Below, one piece after another: positions 7,531-46,983 of a stretch of 64,000 nucleotides of DNA. The notes beneath the pieces were generated by a model, which saw nothing but the letters and a program-made list of their open reading frames with translations, searched no databases and had not been told where the DNA came from. The stretch covers positions 248,001-312,000 of the forward strand of contig NZ_FWZT01000004.1 in assembly GCF_900177345.1 (NCBI RefSeq), given 5' to 3'. The position numbers and the translations under genes are program-made. Source of the DNA: Pseudobacteriovorax antillogorgiicola. Lineage in GTDB: Bacteria > Bdellovibrionota_B > Oligoflexia > Oligoflexales > Oligoflexaceae. How positions within the stretch are numbered: position 1 is the first letter of the stretch; the number at the start of each line of letters is the position of its first letter.

Positions 7531-7929
7531 TGTTCCATCCCTTTTGAAGTTTTTTCACCTATGTCTGGGGTGGTGCAAGCCTGATACCATAGCCAGGAGT
7601 CGCGGAATCTGAATTTTATAAGTTAATTCTTATATTTACATTCTTAGCTCAGATTCTTGCTTTGTCGCCAGGATCGCCAGGTGGGGAGTAGAATTGAGGT
7701 GGGATCTGAATAAATTGCGTAATATTCGTAAGTTAAGGTGATTGGTTTTCCGTACAGGATGTCAGAGCTGGCTCTGAACGCTGTGGTTTCCTATAAGTTG
7801 GAGACAAGAATAAGTTATTTGAAGAAGGATGGCTGGCTCTTGAAGCATGGGTCAGGATCAAACCTTTCGCCACCAAAAGCGTTGCAAATCTTTGTCCAGA
7901 GAATCGGGAAAGTGAAGGGGCTTGCCCCT

Positions 7930-8337
7930 CTAGCTCGCAGTGATAAACTTCAAGGCATAGCCGTTGCGCTCCTGGCGAGCGACACGAGCCTTGGCTCGAA
8001 AAACCTGTTCACCGGTTTCTAACTTAATAATCAGGTGCACAGTGTCGTTCACAAAAATATTCTCATCAGGATAGCAGGCTAGAAACATACCTGATGCGGA
8101 GATGTCCTTACAATCACCAATGATGTAGATTTCACCCTTGTTGAGATTGACCTGAGCGCCCATGCTGAGCCTATCGTGTTGCCTTTGGTTGAGGCTACTA
8201 ATCTCACTGAAAGTAATATTTAGCGGGTTTTTCGGCCTCAGTGGTGTGCTGCTGATGGCCTGTTCCACAGAGTAGCGGTCCATGCACTGGAGCATCGACA
8301 TGACGAGTTTCTCGCCAGGATTGCTGGATTTAGACAT
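7930..8337 (-). CDS. PilZ-domain protein
   Basis: A 135-residue cytoplasmic protein. The PilZ signature for cyclic-di-GMP binding is visible: RQHDR at about residues 51-55 (RxxxR) and DISASGM at about 78-84 (D/NxSxxG), followed by the beta strands of the barrel (VHLIIKLETGEQVFRAKARVARQERNGYALKF). The N-terminal 50 residues have no known domain. AGGGGA lies upstream of the ATG. Proteins of this type usually regulate motility, adhesion or exopolysaccharide in response to c-di-GMP; the target cannot be read from the neighbourhood. Confidence 0.85.
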   Translation of the reverse strand: MSKSSNPGEKLVMSMLQCMDRYSVEQAISSTPLRPKNPLNITFSEISSLNQRQHDRLSMGAQVNLNKGEIYIIGDCKDISASGMFLACYPDENIFVNDTVHLIIKLETGEQVFRAKARVARQERNGYALKFITAS

Positions 8338-14176: not shown

Positions 14177-15862
14177 ATGACTAACCACCGACCTTTGTTG
14201 AGATTTATCCTATTGGGGTTCACGGCTTTTGCCTGTCAGGAACCTGAAAATTCTGCTCCCAAGGACGAAATATCAAGTGTTATCGATGATGCTTACGTTA
14301 TGGGTCAAGCCTATCGCTCCGATCTGAAATCTGTCCTTTCAGATCGCTGCGTGACAACTACAGCACAACAATTAGGAAATCAAAGCTCTAGTCTGAAGAT
14401 TGAAAAAGGTCTGCAATTTGATCAGGTTCTCGATCAGCTGGACATCAATAATACGGTTGCAGCCAAGATTAAGTTTGTTGATGTTAAGGCTACCCTTAAC
14501 ATTGCCAAGTCACATTCGGCGACAGATTTGGAACAGAGCTTCACTCTACTCTGGAAAGGTAACTATCAAGACGATGTTGCTGAAACGGTTGCTTGGTCTG
14601 AACTAGGTCAACAGCTTCTCGCCGAGAATAACCCGGAGACATTCAAACGTTTTTGTGGCCAGGAGTTTATTTATCGGGTCAATCATAAGGCCTGGTTGAT
14701 TGCGACTTTAAAGCTTCAGTTCCAAAGTAGAGAGGACAAAGATCAAGTGACCTCAGCACTGGAAGTTTCCATTGAAAACGTTGTCTCTAAGGCTGCATCG
14801 GCTGCAAGCACAGATGGTGAGGATGGTGGTAAACCACTGGCTCAAATCAAAAATGAAGTGAGTAAATTAAATGAAACTCTGAGCAAAAGAGTAAAGGTTC
14901 TCATCGAGATCCATCAGCTTGGAGGTGCTCCTGAAGCCAGCTTAGGTGCTGTGAAAAGCCTTCAGTGTAATCTGTCATCGATCGAAGAATGTTTGAATGA
15001 ACTTGTCCAGTTTCCAGAATATCTAGAGATCTATAAATCTAGCCTAGCGGAAGCTGAAACCTTGCCGGTTCATTCTTTTGAGACTAAAGCATATACGGAC
15101 TACTATGCACTGAGAGATGCTCCAGTATCGAATATTCAAGAGAATTTACCTTTAAATCGCGCCATCGAAGATGTTTGGGTGCAGGTGAAGAGAAACTTTC
15201 AAGTGAAAGAACTGGCTGAATCATTAAGAAATCAGGCACTGGCTAGCCATGCCAATAGAAATATTGAGCAGCTGCTTTCAATTAAAGAGGACTTAGTACA
15301 GTGCTTAAGGGACAATTGCAATTACGATCAGAGCTTAAAGGAGAGAACAGAATCCATCTTGGAGAGCACCAAGCCAGCAGAAATCGATGCAGATGGTGTT
15401 TCTAAATCCTGCATTCAATTGCCAGCAAGAGTCACTATCAAGTCTTTAGCTAACGACAACTATATAGCCTATAACGAACGCTACGAGTCCTATACTGCCG
15501 AAGGTCGTTCCCCAGCTGTTTTTACTGTCAATGGGAATGAAACCACCCTTACAAATAATAGACAAGTTACTTTCTACGAGACTGTTAACCGCGGACTATC
15601 CCGGTATGGACGGGCGAGAGGCGCCTACTCTTGGGGTTTAACTTACTATCCAAAAGCTGAGCCTGTATTAGTACTGGATGCGGATTCTCAAAGCGATGAG
15701 ACTTGCATCAAGAATGGTAGTAAGGTCTTTTTGAAAATGAGTGGTTATTATATTCGGACTTGGATGGAAGGTTCTTGGAAGGGGTATCTCTTCAGTTGGG
15801 ACTCGCATCCAGAAAAGCCGAGTTTTACGTCTCATCTGTTTGAGATTCGTGAAGCTGAATAG
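14177..15862 (+). CDS. Large lipoprotein with possible beta-trefoil C-terminus
   Basis: A 561-residue lipoprotein (FTAFAC, Cys20) with AAAGGAGTCCTG before the ATG. Residues about 40-410 are mainly helical, with Cys residues in pairs (SLQCNLSSIEECLN, VQCLRDNCNYD) and no recognised domain. Residues about 415-561 look like a beta-trefoil of the fascin/actin-crosslinking kind: ARVTIKSLANDNYIAYNERY, then VFTVNGNETTLTNNRQVTFYE, then KVFLKMSGYYIRTWM, each with a strand-turn-strand pattern. Such modules often bind carbohydrates. The gene converges on the next one at a shared hairpin. Function unknown. Confidence 0.75.
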   Translation: MTNHRPLLRFILLGFTAFACQEPENSAPKDEISSVIDDAYVMGQAYRSDLKSVLSDRCVTTTAQQLGNQSSSLKIEKGLQFDQVLDQLDINNTVAAKIKFVDVKATLNIAKSHSATDLEQSFTLLWKGNYQDDVAETVAWSELGQQLLAENNPETFKRFCGQEFIYRVNHKAWLIATLKLQFQSREDKDQVTSALEVSIENVVSKAASAASTDGEDGGKPLAQIKNEVSKLNETLSKRVKVLIEIHQLGGAPEASLGAVKSLQCNLSSIEECLNELVQFPEYLEIYKSSLAEAETLPVHSFETKAYTDYYALRDAPVSNIQENLPLNRAIEDVWVQVKRNFQVKELAESLRNQALASHANRNIEQLLSIKEDLVQCLRDNCNYDQSLKERTESILESTKPAEIDADGVSKSCIQLPARVTIKSLANDNYIAYNERYESYTAEGRSPAVFTVNGNETTLTNNRQVTFYETVNRGLSRYGRARGAYSWGLTYYPKAEPVLVLDADSQSDETCIKNGSKVFLKMSGYYIRTWMEGSWKGYLFSWDSHPEKPSFTSHLFEIREAE

Positions 15863-38986: not shown

Positions 38987-39856
38987 ATGAACTCACTTTC
39001 CATGAGCATCGCATGTTTATCGTGCGCGGGCATCCTTGCCTACAGTTCCGTAAAAAATATAGATAATACTGTAACAATCCGAGAGCCTGATAGAACCTTG
39101 AAGGTTCGGCTTGACGACAAACCTAGGATCGACAAGGCAGTGGAGTTTTTGGGCAAGGTGCAGAAGCGCTTAGCTCGGGGGATCGCCAATGCTGCGGAAC
39201 GAGAGGGGTTAAGCCTCAGTACTCGTAAAAACGATCCTAAGCTTCGTAACACGATTAGTTTTGATCTCACAATCAAGCCAAAACGAGAAAGCTGTATTAT
39301 CGGGAGTCTAGACCTAATGTCTCTCCATAGTAAATATGTTGGTAGCGACGAGTTTCTTTTGACACTAGAGGATTTATCAAATGAAGCTCAATTCAAAATC
39401 GTTCATAAAACCAGCCTTAGCGAATTGATGAAGGGCAAAGCCTTTGAATTTCGCTTGCCACGGCGGCAGAAGCTTAGCCAGTATGGAATCTTTATATGTA
39501 GCCTGGGTAAGGGGCAAACCTGTAGTGATCATGCGAAAGGCGGGATGATTGATACCTTCCACGAGCATCGTCTCGTAAAACAGAAGGGCCGCAAATACTC
39601 GGGTCTCGATCGAATCTTTGCCTTTCAGCATTTATTGGTTCAAGATAAGAAAATTAGAGTTACGAATCAAAAGGCCGGACCAAAGCTATTCGCGATGCTG
39701 AGTCGAAGCTTGCCAGAACAGGAGCGAATTCGTCAGCAAGGGGCCATTAATCTATCAGAAAAGATTCAAAAGAAGACTTCTCCCACAGATATTGAAATCG
39801 AAGATGGGACGGTTACCATGGGGCTTGGTTATCATAAGCCGGGTTGCTTCCTTTAA
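38987..39856 (+). CDS. Secreted/anchored basic protein
   Basis: A 289-residue protein with a short hydrophobic N-terminus (SMSIACLSCAGILAYS); export or anchoring is likely, but the cleavage site is unclear. Residues about 90-180 look beta-rich (SFDLTIKPKRESCIIGSLDLMSLH). The protein is strongly basic, and the end includes ITDVEIEDG-like acidic residues and a C-terminal Cys (HKPGCFL). No recognised family. The start has GGGGGGAC and GAGGA close by. A hairpin follows the stop. Confidence 0.65.
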   Translation: MNSLSMSIACLSCAGILAYSSVKNIDNTVTIREPDRTLKVRLDDKPRIDKAVEFLGKVQKRLARGIANAAEREGLSLSTRKNDPKLRNTISFDLTIKPKRESCIIGSLDLMSLHSKYVGSDEFLLTLEDLSNEAQFKIVHKTSLSELMKGKAFEFRLPRRQKLSQYGIFICSLGKGQTCSDHAKGGMIDTFHEHRLVKQKGRKYSGLDRIFAFQHLLVQDKKIRVTNQKAGPKLFAMLSRSLPEQERIRQQGAINLSEKIQKKTSPTDIEIEDGTVTMGLGYHKPGCFL

Positions 39857-41794: not shown

Positions 41795-41874
41795 CATCGA
41801 TTCTCATGTGGATAGGATAGAAAAGCGATCTAGGCTGATGATCAACCCAGATCCGAAATCATATTCGCTGACAG

Positions 41875-42768
41875 CTATTGCTGATGATCGATAGCATCTA
41901 GTATGGCAACCATACTAAGGATGCGTTTGTCAGTGAGAGATAGAAACTGTTGCCAGGCGTTATCACCCATCTTGAAGTCGTTTGGATAGACAATGCGGCT
42001 TCGACTTATCATATCAAAGTTTACCGTTTGTCCCTCGTAGGCGTGACTACTGATTGATGTGATAAGCTCATAATTTCCATTCGAACGGATTAAGAAAGCT
42101 CCTTCTGGAACATCTTCCGCTTTAGTCATGAATTGCTCACCACCATCTTGGTCTGCATATACAACAGGATGTGCTGACGTCAATGTTATGCTTTTGCCAG
42201 ACTCTGTGGTGAAGGTATATACATCCTCAAACTCGGGTCCCATCATTACATTATCGATAGGAAAGAAGTCGATCTCGCTTAATCCGAAAGAATCACCAGA
42301 CTTTAAGAGCAATTCCGCTAAGCGGGATTGGTCTCGCCATTCTACCAGCTGCCAAGCTGTCATTTCACCAAGGTTTGTTTCAAAGACGGTTTCTTGAGCC
42401 ACACATCCACACTGGCAACGCATAGCGGTGCCATCGATTGATACTGTAAACCAATAGCCCGATCCAAGAAATCCAGAACAAGTACCGCCAGCAGTTGGAG
42501 GACAGGCCTCCTTTTTACACATGTTCCGGGCCATAATTTGGCTGGCTGACTGTTTGCAGCGAGTACCAGCGGGCTCTAGTTGGCAAATATCAGATCTCAT
42601 CTCTGCCGGTGTAGAACAACGGCTTCCCCCTGCGGTAGCAGCTAACTTCTTGCCAATGAGCTTGCGATAATCGCCGATATCAACCAGGCGTTTTACGGGT
42701 GAGAGACTAAAGCTTTGCTGACTCATGACAAAGAAACTAAGGAACCAAAGACTGAGGATGTACTTCAT
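41875..42768 (-). CDS. Secreted Cys-rich protein with Hint-like domain (copy B)
   Basis: A 297-residue secreted protein in two parts. Residues about 22-121 are a Cys-rich module with ten cysteines (for example RCSTPAEMRSDICQLE, MCKKEACPPTAGGTC, AMRCQCGC). Residues 122-276 read as a Hint domain of the Hedgehog/intein kind. It starts at Cys122 (GCVAQETVFETNLG) and has the TxxH block (LTSAHPVVYAD, 197-206), a strand GAFLIRSNGNYELITSI and the closing VNFDMISRSRIVYPNDFKMGDNAW. Hint domains catalyse an N-S acyl shift and cut off or join the preceding segment. It is 54% of the protein and C-terminal, as in Hedgehog. Paralogue of the 43510 gene; last gene of a three-gene operon. Confidence 0.75.
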   Translation of the reverse strand: MKYILSLWFLSFFVMSQQSFSLSPVKRLVDIGDYRKLIGKKLAATAGGSRCSTPAEMRSDICQLEPAGTRCKQSASQIMARNMCKKEACPPTAGGTCSGFLGSGYWFTVSIDGTAMRCQCGCVAQETVFETNLGEMTAWQLVEWRDQSRLAELLLKSGDSFGLSEIDFFPIDNVMMGPEFEDVYTFTTESGKSITLTSAHPVVYADQDGGEQFMTKAEDVPEGAFLIRSNGNYELITSISSHAYEGQTVNFDMISRSRIVYPNDFKMGDNAWQQFLSLTDKRILSMVAILDAIDHQQ

Positions 42769-42769
42769 G

Positions 42770-43456
42770 CTACTCTCCTAAGCTCTGAGTGACGATTCGC
42801 AACTTGTAAAGGTCAAAGTCACCTTCAACTAAGTTACAAAGGGATACCCTCATATTTCTAATCTTGTGATCAAAGCGATGGCTTCTTAGATCTCCCAAAC
42901 TAACTTCAAAATCGCGGCCATCAGATGACCAGATAGCTATGGTTGGATCTTCAGCAAACATATAGCCGCGTCGCCACTGAACCGCCGGCACTTGATGGAT
43001 TCGTTGGTCAGCTACCCAATTGCCATTGCCAGTGTAGTCCATTTCGAAGTCGAGACGGACTTCAAAAGTAGGCTCAAAGCGCACTTGATCCGCATGGGAC
43101 ACATTGGCGAAGTAGGCAGTTTGTAAAGCATCGAGTTCGATATCAACTCGGGAAGGGCCAGATAAGTTGATAGCATTCTTTTGAATAGCAAAACACCTGG
43201 GCCAACGTTTATAGGATCTCATGCACTGCGCTGTATTTTGTGGGTTCCAGCATCGCGCAAACATATTTAACCACAGCATCGGTCGAGCGCCGACCTGGTC
43301 ATTGTAGTAAACACCTTTACCAGAGGGTACTTCGAACTCAGAGATGTCATAGACCACTGAGTTCTCAGGAAATCCAATTTGATCACCGTCCTGCACGATG
43401 TCCGCATGGGAGATGTTCGAAAGTAGAATTGCTAGCATGCCAATCATAAGTTTCAT
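42770..43456 (-). CDS. Secreted protein between the Hint paralogues
   Basis: A 228-residue exported protein (signal ending at NISHAD). It is predicted beta-rich, with Cys pairs in the middle (FARCWNPQNTAQCMRS, RCFAIQ) and Trp/Tyr/Phe-rich strands, possibly a jelly roll (RFEPTFEVRLDFEMDYTG). No family recognised. Its stop lies one base before the start of the 41875 gene, so the two are coupled. AGGGG lies six bases before the ATG. Its place between the two Hint proteins suggests that it is a substrate, partner or shield, but nothing shows which. Confidence 0.7.
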   Translation of the reverse strand: MKLMIGMLAILLSNISHADIVQDGDQIGFPENSVVYDISEFEVPSGKGVYYNDQVGARPMLWLNMFARCWNPQNTAQCMRSYKRWPRCFAIQKNAINLSGPSRVDIELDALQTAYFANVSHADQVRFEPTFEVRLDFEMDYTGNGNWVADQRIHQVPAVQWRRGYMFAEDPTIAIWSSDGRDFEVSLGDLRSHRFDHKIRNMRVSLCNLVEGDFDLYKLRIVTQSLGE

Positions 43457-43477
43457 TTTTTTCCCCTTTTTTATTAA

Positions 43478-43496
43478 GCACGCCTAGGAGGCGTGC
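43478..43496 (-). other. Intercistronic hairpin
   Basis: GCACGCCT (43478-43485), AGG, AGGCGTGC (43489-43496) form a perfect 8-bp stem between the first and second genes of the Hint operon. On the minus strand it is followed by A-rich DNA, so it is not a typical terminator. It may stabilise or process the mRNA and change the relative levels of the products. Confidence 0.45.
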
Positions 43497-43509
43497 ATTT
43501 GTAAATCTT

Positions 43510-44337
43510 CTATTGTTGATTCGCGAGTGCTTCTTGGATATCACCTACTGTTAGAACGCGAGCGTCATTCATTAATAGATACTGTTGCCAGGAATTATCA
43601 CCAGTTTTGAAGCCATTGGTGTATACCATGCGGCTTGGGCTCATTGCGGTGAAATTGACCGTCATACCATGGTAGGGATGAGTGTCGATTGAGACGATGC
43701 GATCATAGCTTCCATCTTGGTTGATCAGATAAATGTGATCACCTGTAGGAACCTGGCTCGCAGGGCCCATAAACTCCTCCTTAGTTTCTCGATCACCCTT
43801 GGCAAAGGCAACGGGGTGACCTTCGGTCACAGTTAAGCTCTTTCCTGTTGCAGATATAAAGGTAAATACATCTTTTTCTTCGGGACCAGCGATGACGTCT
43901 TCGATTCCATAAAATCCTGTGGCACCACCCCCAAAGTCTTCTTGGGACAAAAGCTTCAAATCTTCGGCACTATCTTGATCACGAAATGCCAGAAGCTCGG
44001 TTCCTGTAATCAGACCAAACTCGCTGACAAATTCTGTTTCTTCAGCGCTACATCCGCACTGGCAGCGAAGGGAAACAGCATCGATGCTGACGGGAAACCA
44101 TTTACCACTACCCAGAAATCCCTTGCAACCTCCACCGATAGTAGGAGGGCAGGCGGCGGCGGTACACATATTTTGAACCATGACCCGCGCAGCGCGATCC
44201 ACAGAACAACGGGTACCAGCCTTTTCTAGACTACAGATATCCTCGTCCCAGTCGGCGGTGGTACAAAGAGTAAAAGCGAATAGGGGAGATCCCCAGAGCA
44301 ATGTTAGTAACAATCCTAGCTTTACAAAAATCTTCAT
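43510..44337 (-). CDS. Secreted Cys-rich protein with Hint-like domain (copy A)
   Basis: A 275-residue secreted protein with the same layout as the 41875 product: signal peptide to about residue 21, a Cys-rich module (CTTADWDEDICSLEKAGTRC, MCTAAACPPTIGGGC) and a Hint-like domain beginning at Cys96 (GCSAEETEFVSEFG). The TxxH block is TEGHPVAFA (171-179), and the closing strand is MVYTNGFKTGDNSWQQ, where the NGFxxGDN end matches that of many bacterial Hint domains. The two copies align over most of their length, so they arose by duplication. AGGAGT before the ATG. First gene of the three-gene operon. Confidence 0.75.
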   Translation of the reverse strand: MKIFVKLGLLLTLLWGSPLFAFTLCTTADWDEDICSLEKAGTRCSVDRAARVMVQNMCTAAACPPTIGGGCKGFLGSGKWFPVSIDAVSLRCQCGCSAEETEFVSEFGLITGTELLAFRDQDSAEDLKLLSQEDFGGGATGFYGIEDVIAGPEEKDVFTFISATGKSLTVTEGHPVAFAKGDRETKEEFMGPASQVPTGDHIYLINQDGSYDRIVSIDTHPYHGMTVNFTAMSPSRMVYTNGFKTGDNSWQQYLLMNDARVLTVGDIQEALANQQ

Positions 44338-44481: not shown

Positions 44482-45300
44482 TCACTCTTCAATTGGGGTT
44501 CCTTTTAAGCTATTGCTAAATAAGAATGATGCTCCCGTGCTCAAGCTTAACCTATAGCCAAAGCCGATCTGGGGAAGTAGATACGGCTGATTTGGATTGA
44601 AGAGATTGCGTACTTGTAGCATTTCATTTTTATCACTGGCGACTACGATGTCTAGGCGACAAACATCAGCATAGACACCTTCACAAATTGCGGGGTGTTC
44701 ATAGACTTCAGTTGAAACCTCTTTCGTGATCTCGCCTGGGAAAGGATTGTCTAAGAATTCACCGATTTGAACATCAGTGTCTCCGTAACGGATGAATACG
44801 CCATCGCCCTTGGTTGCGAAACTCTGGTAATTGCTGGGATCTTGAATTGTCGCATAGATCGTGGCCTCGGAGCTTGGGTCTAAACGCAAGGATGCACCAT
44901 AGTCCACATCGAGGCTGTCTTGCCCTTTGATAACCATCCCTAAGTTGAATTTAGTTTTTTCTTCATCCAGGAAGATCGGACCGTTATTTTCCCAGTCCTG
45001 ATTAATGAAAAGCCGAGCAATGAGCTTTGTATCAGGAATCATCACCGACTCATCGGTGTTCGATAAAGCCCACTTTGAGACCAGCAAGCACTTGCCTGAT
45101 TCGTCTCCTAGAACAAAGGCACATGGATTGTTCAAGTCAACCTGAGGTGGCAGCTCTTGGCTTGGGTCGCCGGAACTATTGTCGCTGTTTTGATTACCGG
45201 TAGAACTAGCTGGGTCTTGACTGTCTCCAGGGCTATCGGCACAGGCCGCAAGACTTGAAAACATCAGAGCATAGGCTGCTCCAAGAACTTTCATTTTCAT
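44482..45300 (-). CDS. Lipoprotein of unknown function
   Basis: A 272-residue lipoprotein (SLAAC, Cys20). A Ser/Asn/Gln/Asp-rich linker to about residue 50 is followed by a beta-rich globular part with paired Cys (NNPCAFVLGDESGKCLLVS, AICEGVYADVCRLD). CAAGGAGTG lies before the ATG. It is upstream of the Hint operon in the same direction with 144 bp between, and downstream of the TM-anchored gene. No family is recognised; it is one of the consecutive exported proteins in this locus. Confidence 0.72.
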   Translation of the reverse strand: MKMKVLGAAYALMFSSLAACADSPGDSQDPASSTGNQNSDNSSGDPSQELPPQVDLNNPCAFVLGDESGKCLLVSKWALSNTDESVMIPDTKLIARLFINQDWENNGPIFLDEEKTKFNLGMVIKGQDSLDVDYGASLRLDPSSEATIYATIQDPSNYQSFATKGDGVFIRYGDTDVQIGEFLDNPFPGEITKEVSTEVYEHPAICEGVYADVCRLDIVVASDKNEMLQVRNLFNPNQPYLLPQIGFGYRLSLSTGASFLFSNSLKGTPIEE

Positions 45301-45353: not shown

Positions 45354-46112
45354 TTAATTTGGCATATCATAGCTTGGGTAAACATCCCGAATACGTTGCC
45401 GAGCCTGGTCTTTTGGCATCTGGGCAAGTAAAAAGCCTGTTTCAATATGTACTGCAGCATAGCTTCTATAGATAGGGTCTTTAATTGCACTAAGTTTGGC
45501 GATAGCTGCGTCAGGATCATAGCGAGCCAGGGCTTTCAGAACTTCAATATTTTCGTTTAACTTCATCGCTTTCACTTTGGCTGGCTTGATATGATCGATG
45601 GGCTGCTGTAAGTACTCAAAAACGCGAAACCTGGTCATCGGATCAAATTTCATGCGATAGCCCAAGTAGTCGACTAATGCCAGCCTCTGACTAAGCTCAT
45701 GGGTATCATACGGATTATGAGACAGTCTCTGAAGAATAGAGGCGACCCCACGGTGGCCCCTTTGATTCAGATTCGCCAGAGTTACCCGTATTTGTTCATC
45801 ATTGAGACTGCGAACGCTGCCCATGAACATGGCCTCTACTTCACCGACGAACGCTTCTTCCTCTTTAGCGGGGAGGGGTTCGAAGACAAAATAATCGGTT
45901 TTGGTGGGATCTTCATTGCGGTTACTAGCCTTCTTTTCACTTGAAGGTTGAGGTTCCACACGGGCTGTGTTCTCAGCAAGTGGTTCTGTCATGGTGCTCG
46001 GCAATAGACTTGTATCCTGATGGCCAACCTCAACTCGCTCATTTTTGTAGATCAAAGCTAGGATTAGCAATGCAGATCCGAGTCCGACTGTAGCTATTTT
46101 ACTAGTGCTCAT
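45354..46112 (-). CDS. Membrane-anchored helical protein
   Basis: A 252-residue protein with an uncleaved-looking N-terminal helix (IATVGLGSALLILALIY), a Ser/Glu/Thr-rich linker and a helical domain (about 85-252) of HEAT- or TPR-like character, judged only from helix-turn-helix spacing (HRGVASILQRLSHNPYDTHEL, NENIEVLKALARYDPDAAIAKL). GGATCG precedes the ATG. The same anchor-linker-helical plan appears in the 161-residue protein at 49404, on the other side of the divergent promoter. It follows the 46132 gene by 19 bp, so they are likely one operon. Confidence 0.7.
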   Translation of the reverse strand: MSTSKIATVGLGSALLILALIYKNERVEVGHQDTSLLPSTMTEPLAENTARVEPQPSSEKKASNRNEDPTKTDYFVFEPLPAKEEEAFVGEVEAMFMGSVRSLNDEQIRVTLANLNQRGHRGVASILQRLSHNPYDTHELSQRLALVDYLGYRMKFDPMTRFRVFEYLQQPIDHIKPAKVKAMKLNENIEVLKALARYDPDAAIAKLSAIKDPIYRSYAAVHIETGFLLAQMPKDQARQRIRDVYPSYDMPN

Positions 46113-46131: not shown

Positions 46132-46983
46132 TTAGATTGGGAGCCCGCTAAGACTGTCTTCAAGCTTGCGATTGGGGGCAATGTTCCAAGTTGTAAATCG
46201 ATCTTGAATTCGTTGGCCTTCCTGCTTCTCATCCTGAAGTTGATTGAAGTAATGAGAGGAAGCGCTTTGAGATGCGAGATCGATGGTTTGAGGAGTAAAC
46301 GGGCTCGGCCGGCCTCTCAATTTAGCTCTCAGCACAATTTCTAGAACTGAGAAATCGTCGGCAGCATCACAGGCATCGAAGTTCGAGGAGTCTTCCATGC
46401 ATATTTCATCGTAGTATTGCTTTGCCTCAACTATGCTACTCAACATGATGTTTGATTTGGTAACATCCCATGACTCGTATTCCTCAAATGATATGGCTTG
46501 AAGGTAGAGGTCCAATGTGAGATCGATGATCTTAGCTTGGGAGATAGCTTCTTGGCTCCAAAGGTGAAGGGTATTATCGGAGGGAGATTTGTTTACGTTC
46601 TCATCTACAATAAGTTGACAGCCGGTCAAAAACGTTTTTCGATAAAAGTCGTCTTGGTTGTATGACAGTGCCACACCTTGACGACTGACGACGTTCGTTA
46701 GAGATTGCCAGTCCTGTCCCCTCCGCAACTCGTATGTTCCCATGTTGGTTTTTAGTGAGATAGGAGCGCTGTGGCCCCGGCATTGGTATTTGTATCGGAT
46801 ATCTAGGGATACTTCAAAATCTTCTGTAGCAGGGATAGAGAAGGGCTGAAGAGAGCAGCCGGTAAGGGTTCTACCTGAGTCGAAGTCACACTGGATTAAA
46901 TTGGCAGATGCCTGCGCTGATGGTCCTAGGCTGACCAGAGCAGCGGTAGTTAAGAAAATTTTTTGGTATTTTTTCTGAAACAT
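46132..46983 (-). CDS. Secreted protein of unknown function
   Basis: A 283-residue exported protein with a signal peptide to about residue 26 (SAQASAN). The N-terminal half is beta-rich with cysteines that may pair (LIQCDFDSGRTLTGCS). The C-terminal half has Cys in IMLSSIVEAKQYYDEICMEDSSNFDACD and a helical tail. CTGGAG before the ATG. It opens the leftward run 46983-45354, with its own promoter region at 46984-47206. No recognised family. Confidence 0.7.
   Translation of the reverse strand: MFQKKYQKIFLTTAALVSLGPSAQASANLIQCDFDSGRTLTGCSLQPFSIPATEDFEVSLDIRYKYQCRGHSAPISLKTNMGTYELRRGQDWQSLTNVVSRQGVALSYNQDDFYRKTFLTGCQLIVDENVNKSPSDNTLHLWSQEAISQAKIIDLTLDLYLQAISFEEYESWDVTKSNIMLSSIVEAKQYYDEICMEDSSNFDACDAADDFSVLEIVLRAKLRGRPSPFTPQTIDLASQSASSHYFNQLQDEKQEGQRIQDRFTTWNIAPNRKLEDSLSGLPI

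Follow-up and report, generated by a model that had tools for sequence, protein, structure and literature searches.

Exported Cys-rich proteins with a C-terminal Hint domain in Pseudobacteriovorax antillogorgiicola and their putative N-side processing

Introduction

The self-cutting and lipid tagging of Hedgehog proteins are usually presented as a eukaryotic invention, with inteins and BIL domains as the bacterial relatives. A large bacterial set of proteins with the layout of Hog proteins would give a testable bacterial parallel of the latter, possibly their ancestor, and if the thioester were passed to an acceptor, it would also provide a new bacterial way of attaching surface proteins covalently.

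A bacterial subgroup of secreted proteins whose terminal Hint-like domain fits neither the inteins nor the Hog or BIL domains was pointed out by Burglin in 2008 (PMC2362128) and credited there to Dassa and Pietrokovski. The members listed are MXAN_6253, STIAU_1829, plu1731 and those of Reinekea, Serratia and Yersinia. Two Hint proteins of P. antillogorgiicola, here termed HintA and HintB, share with this subgroup a C-terminal Hint-like domain, motifs A and B and an upstream Cys that is conserved. Also common to both are signal peptides (present in part of the subgroup), divergence from inteins, Hog and BIL, and occurrence in Myxococcota-type genomes. HintA and HintB differ from it in having an N-domain with eight Cys and a CxCGC junction, and the wider set of carriers also comprises lipoproteins and prepilin-like proteins. 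The two proteins probably extend the subgroup, to which they were likened by its described features alone. New are a G[D/S]xxxQ signature at the terminus, the parity of the Cys residues, an N-domain that stands alone, carriers of the prepilin-like and lipoprotein kinds, the expansion across the phylum and two types of neighbourhood. The Hint carriers described here are a large and barely studied set of bacterial proteins.

Results and discussion

Organization of the locus

All coordinates in Table 1 refer to the window, which is the whole stretch of 64,000 nucleotides that was analysed. The three open reading frames of the preliminary description, of 275 (HintA), 228 (middle gene) and 297 aa (HintB), were located on the minus strand at the positions it had given. 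Its claim of a secreted trio also held, as a signal-peptide-like hydrophobic stretch, recognized by eye, opens all three genes. Export was called by eye and with a hydropathy script for HintA and HintB, and by eye for the middle gene. The operon is probably larger than this trio and consists of six genes that run from 46983 to 41875 and lie 1 to 144 nt apart, and the hairpin located after HintB is probably its end. Promoter matches at the locus were no better than those in shuffled sequences. A GC-rich stable hairpin (43461-43500, z −2.7) lies in the spacer that separates HintA from the middle gene, and it may set the relative expression of these neighbours.

The 272-aa putative lipoprotein encoded upstream has a weak counterpart upstream of HintA in genome G001. 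Homologues of the 252-aa protein adjoin short Hint genes in G001, G010 and G007, and the protein is 27% identical to its homologue in strain DT_89 (E 1e-22). Homologues of the 283-aa protein were found beside Hint genes in G001 (locus L071) and G010 (L111), with E values of 3e-25 and 5e-18, respectively.

Table 1. Features of the Hint locus and its probable operon in the window
Feature	Position	Strand	Remarks
First gene of the probable operon	46132..46983	-	283-aa exported protein
Upstream gene	45354..46112	-	252-aa protein, hydrophobic N-terminal segment
Upstream gene	44482..45300	-	272-aa putative lipoprotein, lipobox SLAAC by eye
HintA	43510..44337	-	275 aa, exported; N-domain with 8 Cys between signal peptide and C-terminal Hint domain
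HintA Cys-rich N-domain	44053..44274	-	Residues 22-95, 8 Cys, before the predicted cut after Gly95
HintA Hint domain and C-terminal helix	43513..44052	-	Cys96, Thr171/His174, Asn228, Gly246-Asp247, Gln251
Middle gene	42770..43456	-	228-aa exported protein, no family assigned
HintB	41875..42768	-	Exported 297-aa HintA paralogue; start 1 nt past the middle-gene stop
HintB Cys-rich N-domain	42406..42621	-	Residues 50-121, 8 Cys
HintB Hint domain and C-terminal helix	41878..42405	-	Cys122, Thr197/His200, Asn250, Gly268-Asp269, Gln273
Terminator-like hairpin 3' of HintB	41827..41853	-	Consensus match only

Fold of the Hint domains

HintA and HintB share 48% identity in an alignment of 250 residues (E 5e-86). 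The landmarks quoted for them in the preliminary description were all present, namely the initial Cys (GC96SAEET in HintA and GC122VAQET in HintB), block B (T171EGH174P and T197SAH200P) and the closing strand (YTNGFKTGD247N and YPNDFKMGD269N). Its reading of the proteins as a Hint fold with a catalytic Cys and His, preceded by a Cys-rich exported N-domain, is supported. In single-sequence Pfam searches, the two proteins matched Hint (PF01079) with E values of 0.0034 and 0.1, which are below the cut-off. A family profile was needed because a single-sequence search of the PDB with HintA gave noise only. The profile of 14 relatives reached the solved inteins of Pho RadA (2e-8) and KlbA (6.5e-8) and the BIL domain 2lwy (6e-4).

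An AlphaFold model of HintA was built from an alignment of five sequences. The block-mean pLDDT was about 72-90 for most of the Hint part. The best 50 PDB matches obtained with this model in Foldseek were all HINT folds and none was different. They included BIL2 6y75 as the best match (1e-6), KlbA 2jmz (2.2e-6), Hedgehog 1at0 (1.4e-5, TM-score of 0.75 on the target) and BIL 2lwy (1.5e-5). The match of motifs and fold is far beyond chance, and because of the family-profile and Foldseek matches we regard the predicted HINT fold as a firm assignment. The N-domain was modelled at very low confidence (pLDDT below 50), and it is for this reason that we only infer its fold and its disulfides.

With the inteins of Pho RadA and Mja KlbA, which gave the highest profile scores, the window proteins share blocks A and B and the aligned blocks F/G, but they have neither a terminal His-Asn nor a C-extein with Cys/Ser/Thr, and they are not inserted in a housekeeping protein. 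The bacterial intein-like (BIL) domains (such as 2lwy and Tetrahymena BIL2, 6y75) are similar in their HINT fold and in the lack of a splicing +1 nucleophile, whereas the window Hint domains are located at the C-terminus with no notable C-flank and carry Gly-Asp/Ser in place of the terminal His-Asn. In Hedgehog and other Hog proteins, as in the window proteins, the HINT domain comes behind an exported N-part that contains Cys, Gly precedes Cys1, the TxxH block is present and a terminal His-Asn is absent, and the fold match to 1at0 adds to this resemblance. In contrast to Hog proteins, the window proteins have no sterol or adduct recognition region and possess an invariant Asn and the GD/S..Q residues instead. 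In addition, no residue aligned with Asp303, by which Hedgehog activates the acceptor, although the alignment, made with a Hedgehog sequence checked against 1at0, is uncertain there; the Glu of a nearby GPE might substitute for it. The likeness to Hedgehog appears to be one of fold and N-side chemistry.

Conserved residues and their consequences

An alignment of 68 domains from 66 distinct genes, with a mean column identity of about 28%, was used to define the conserved residues. Cys1 was invariant (68/68), and the TxxH block retained its His in 67/67 and its Thr in 62/67 domains. An Asn was found in 67/67 domains in the strand where inteins carry VYD (the block-F Asp position). All 66 domains that could be compared at the terminus had a Gly followed by Asp or Ser, with a Gln four residues further on. 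The residue preceding Cys1 was Gly in 61 domains, Ser in six and Ala in one. The NGFxxGD stretch aligned with the intein ending NGILVHN, and in HintA and HintB the terminal His-Asn of inteins is replaced by Gly-Asp followed by Asn. Since the terminal Asn and the +1 nucleophile are both absent, neither cleavage on the C-side nor splicing is to be expected, and the one chemistry left possible should be that of Hedgehog, on the N-side at Gly-Cys. Judged from its sequence, the domain is a distinct bacterial type of Hint domain.

The block-F His was present in 55/67 relatives and is replaced by Arg in HintA and HintB. Cys1 is followed by Phe/Tyr in most relatives and by Ser or Val in the window proteins. 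Because of these two replacements, the window proteins may be slower or altered in processing. The Arg in both of them would also be in keeping with a HINT fold that has lost its catalytic activity and is retained for structure or binding, but Cys1 and the TxxH His stayed invariant at the low mean identity given above, and we regard a dead fold as improbable.

The tail behind the conserved Gln is only 24 residues long in HintA and HintB and about 10-20 in many relatives. A PT-HINT domain of the polymorphic toxin type, which would free a C-terminal toxin, might be suspected from the scores of some relatives with PF07591 (2.3e-8 in L106, above the cut-off) and from similar domains near the end of large exported proteins. 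However, the Hint domain is terminal in the window proteins and their relatives, with this short tail and no downstream domain, and such a function is very improbable here.

Cys-rich N-domain and its boundary

The mature N-domains of HintA and HintB each contain eight Cys, the catalytic Cys is the only one in the Hint part, and the junction of the two parts reads CxCGC. Among the 68 domains, which are homologues and not independent and a few of which come from incomplete ORFs, 64 had no Cys past Cys1, and 59 were preceded by an even number of Cys. Both groups include the window proteins and all of their close relatives. The same genome also encodes an exported, stand-alone N-domain protein of 98 aa (G000:C18:4497-4793), which keeps all eight Cys and ends as RCQC-APKKE-stop where Gly-Cys1 would start. 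Because this protein stops exactly at the Hint boundary, we take the N-domain to be a module in its own right, destined to occur apart from the Hint part, and regard the protein as the best sequence evidence for this; a truncated gene is a possible explanation instead. In locus L057, a 154-aa Cys-rich exported protein without a Hint domain (7833-8297, minus strand) adjoins two MACPF-like genes, and by eye it resembles the N-domain of the neighbouring Hint protein.

Distribution and carrier proteins

The Hint domain type was found in 39 of the 58 genomes of the phylum. It also occurred in 50 of the 146 genomes from the phylum of G085, taken to be Myxococcota, and there mostly in one family with genomes of 9-13 Mb. 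The genome of P. antillogorgiicola itself gave 14 matches, the stand-alone N-domain among them. When a profile of the closer relatives was compared with genome contigs, four loci were obtained, and a named close relative was Pseudobacteriovorax sp. DT_89. No relatives were found in viral contigs by profile scan or on plasmids by tblastn.

Where the N-terminus was complete, nearly all carriers looked exported, with the Hint domain at or near the C-terminus. Three kinds were distinguished: short Sec-secreted Cys-rich proteins of the window type, lipoproteins (L093, L097, L126, L128 and L131), and proteins of 480-1000 aa with prepilin-like N-termini (L094 and L096; N_methyl E 0.003 in L094). In genomes of the G085 type (L126-L133), the Hint genes form arrays of two to four and fall into two subtypes, namely lipoproteins with CKCGCF..GDLAWQ and secreted proteins with GCY..GSxxFQ.

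Two types of neighbourhood

A MACPF-like gene was present within the fetched region at 13 of the 23 short-Hint loci compared with none of the 36 long-type loci (Fisher 2.8e-7, the loci not being independent). The MACPF identity of these neighbours is moderately supported, with E 0.009 for PF01823 in one member and 0.014 for Aeg-L in the PDB. The window operon itself has no MACPF-like gene. At 14177-15862 (plus strand), 26 kb from the Hint operon, the window encodes a 561-aa putative lipoprotein that matches, at E 4.7e-16, a MACPF-like profile built from Hint-gene neighbours.

The long-type Hint genes are accompanied by a family of proteins of about 300 aa at 24 of the 36 loci, and some of them by a minor pilin (N_methyl E 0.0013). 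A 289-aa homologue of the former family is encoded in the window at 38987-39856 (plus strand), here without a long prepilin-like Hint gene. Two three-gene sets in this genome (L062, 2777-6252; L063, 2999-6408) each comprise a long prepilin-like protein with a C-terminal Hint domain, a protein of about 300 aa and a minor pilin with a prepilin-type N-terminus. This composition suggests that Hint domains are carried on pilus-tip proteins. The host lineage is related to predatory bacteria, and prepilin-like carriers and MACPF-like neighbours in such a lineage make the question of surface attachment concrete.

Proposed processing

Cys1-dependent N-side processing of some form, release and attachment taken together, is what we consider fairly probable, and its site is predicted at Gly95/Cys96 in HintA and Gly121/Cys122 in HintB. 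After export, disulfides would form between the cysteines of the folding N-domain, so that the Hint Cys alone would remain a free thiol. The Hint domain would then drive an N-to-S acyl shift at Gly95-Cys96 or Gly121-Cys122 and so put the N-domain on a thioester. An outside nucleophile would resolve this thioester: water would lead to release, and an acceptor, be it a neighbouring protein or one on the cell surface, to attachment. Because the C-side splicing steps cannot run, the Hint part with its short helical tail would be the discarded or enzymatic half, as in Hedgehog.

In the case of plain self-release, hydrolysis would set the Cys-rich domain free, with the Hint part serving as a disposable aid to export or folding. 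The stand-alone N-domain ending at the predicted cut is in favour of this outcome, and BIL domains without a +1 nucleophile mainly cleave (PMC7664689). On the other hand, to retain about 175 aa in two phyla, with the catalytic residues invariant, seems a high price for release alone, and on lipoproteins and pilin-like proteins hydrolysis would shed just the Hint part. Self-release is a possibility that we hold only tentatively.

The same degree of doubt applies to a Hedgehog-like transfer, in which a specific acceptor (a lipid, sugar or protein amine) would capture the thioester. It applies equally to its consequence that the Cys-rich domain, or in relatives the pilin-like or lipid-anchored protein, would become covalently attached at the surface. 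Transfer is favoured because the domain, like that of Hog proteins, is confined to the C-terminus of exported proteins, and because the C-side chemistry is lost while Cys1 and the His stay invariant. Moreover, the domain has expanded to 14 matches in one genome, whose N-termini are as diverse as in eukaryotic Hog proteins (PMC2362128), and two further conserved elements that do not belong to the usual catalytic residues (GPE; GD/S..Q) could function with an acceptor. However, a sterol or adduct recognition region is absent, given the short tail past the Gln, Asp303 of Hedgehog has no aligned counterpart, and no acceptor or partner is known.

A wider form of transfer, which we consider rather unlikely, is that these proteins are the bacterial counterpart of Hog proteins, the C-terminal Hint module forming a thioester and attaching its exported carrier covalently to an acceptor. 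The carriers would then be secreted Cys-rich domains, lipoproteins and probable pilus-tip proteins in this phylum and Myxococcota, the acceptor would lie on the surface of the own or another cell, and the two neighbourhoods would be those with MACPF-like genes for the short form and minor pilins for the long form.

The gene pair and the middle gene

The preliminary description had considered that the middle gene might be a partner or substrate of the Hint proteins and had not recognized the order Hint-gene-Hint from any described operon. A dedicated role of this kind was not borne out: no relatives of the middle gene were found in 95 other, related genomes, no family match was obtained, and the similarity of the syntenic candidate is marginal. 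This candidate, a gene of similar size located after HintA in G001, gave a BLAST E value of 0.047 and a shuffle z of 2.0, with 36 of 1000 shuffles as good, so that homology is only suggestive. A structure model of the middle gene product was not usable (pLDDT 33). A galectin identity was rejected, with an E value of 0.11 providing no evidence for it.

The order Hint-gene-Hint is indeed present, but it does not mark a special new system. Hint genes are likewise paired side by side in G002 and, on repeated occasions, in genomes of the G085 type, and because such tandem pairs recur, HintA and HintB are best read as an ordinary tandem duplication. The two Hint copies within each genome, that of the window and that of DT_89, are mutual closest relatives (support 0.90-0.98); therefore, separate duplications or concerted evolution are indicated. 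The partly syntenic cluster of DT_89 contains the lipoprotein, HintA, a secreted gene, the homologue of the gene at 45354-46112 and a second Hint gene. The latter lies in two halves at two contig ends (L069, 65-613; L071, 7816-8736; both on the minus strand). A transposase fragment adjoins one of the halves, and the gene appears to have been broken by an insertion element.
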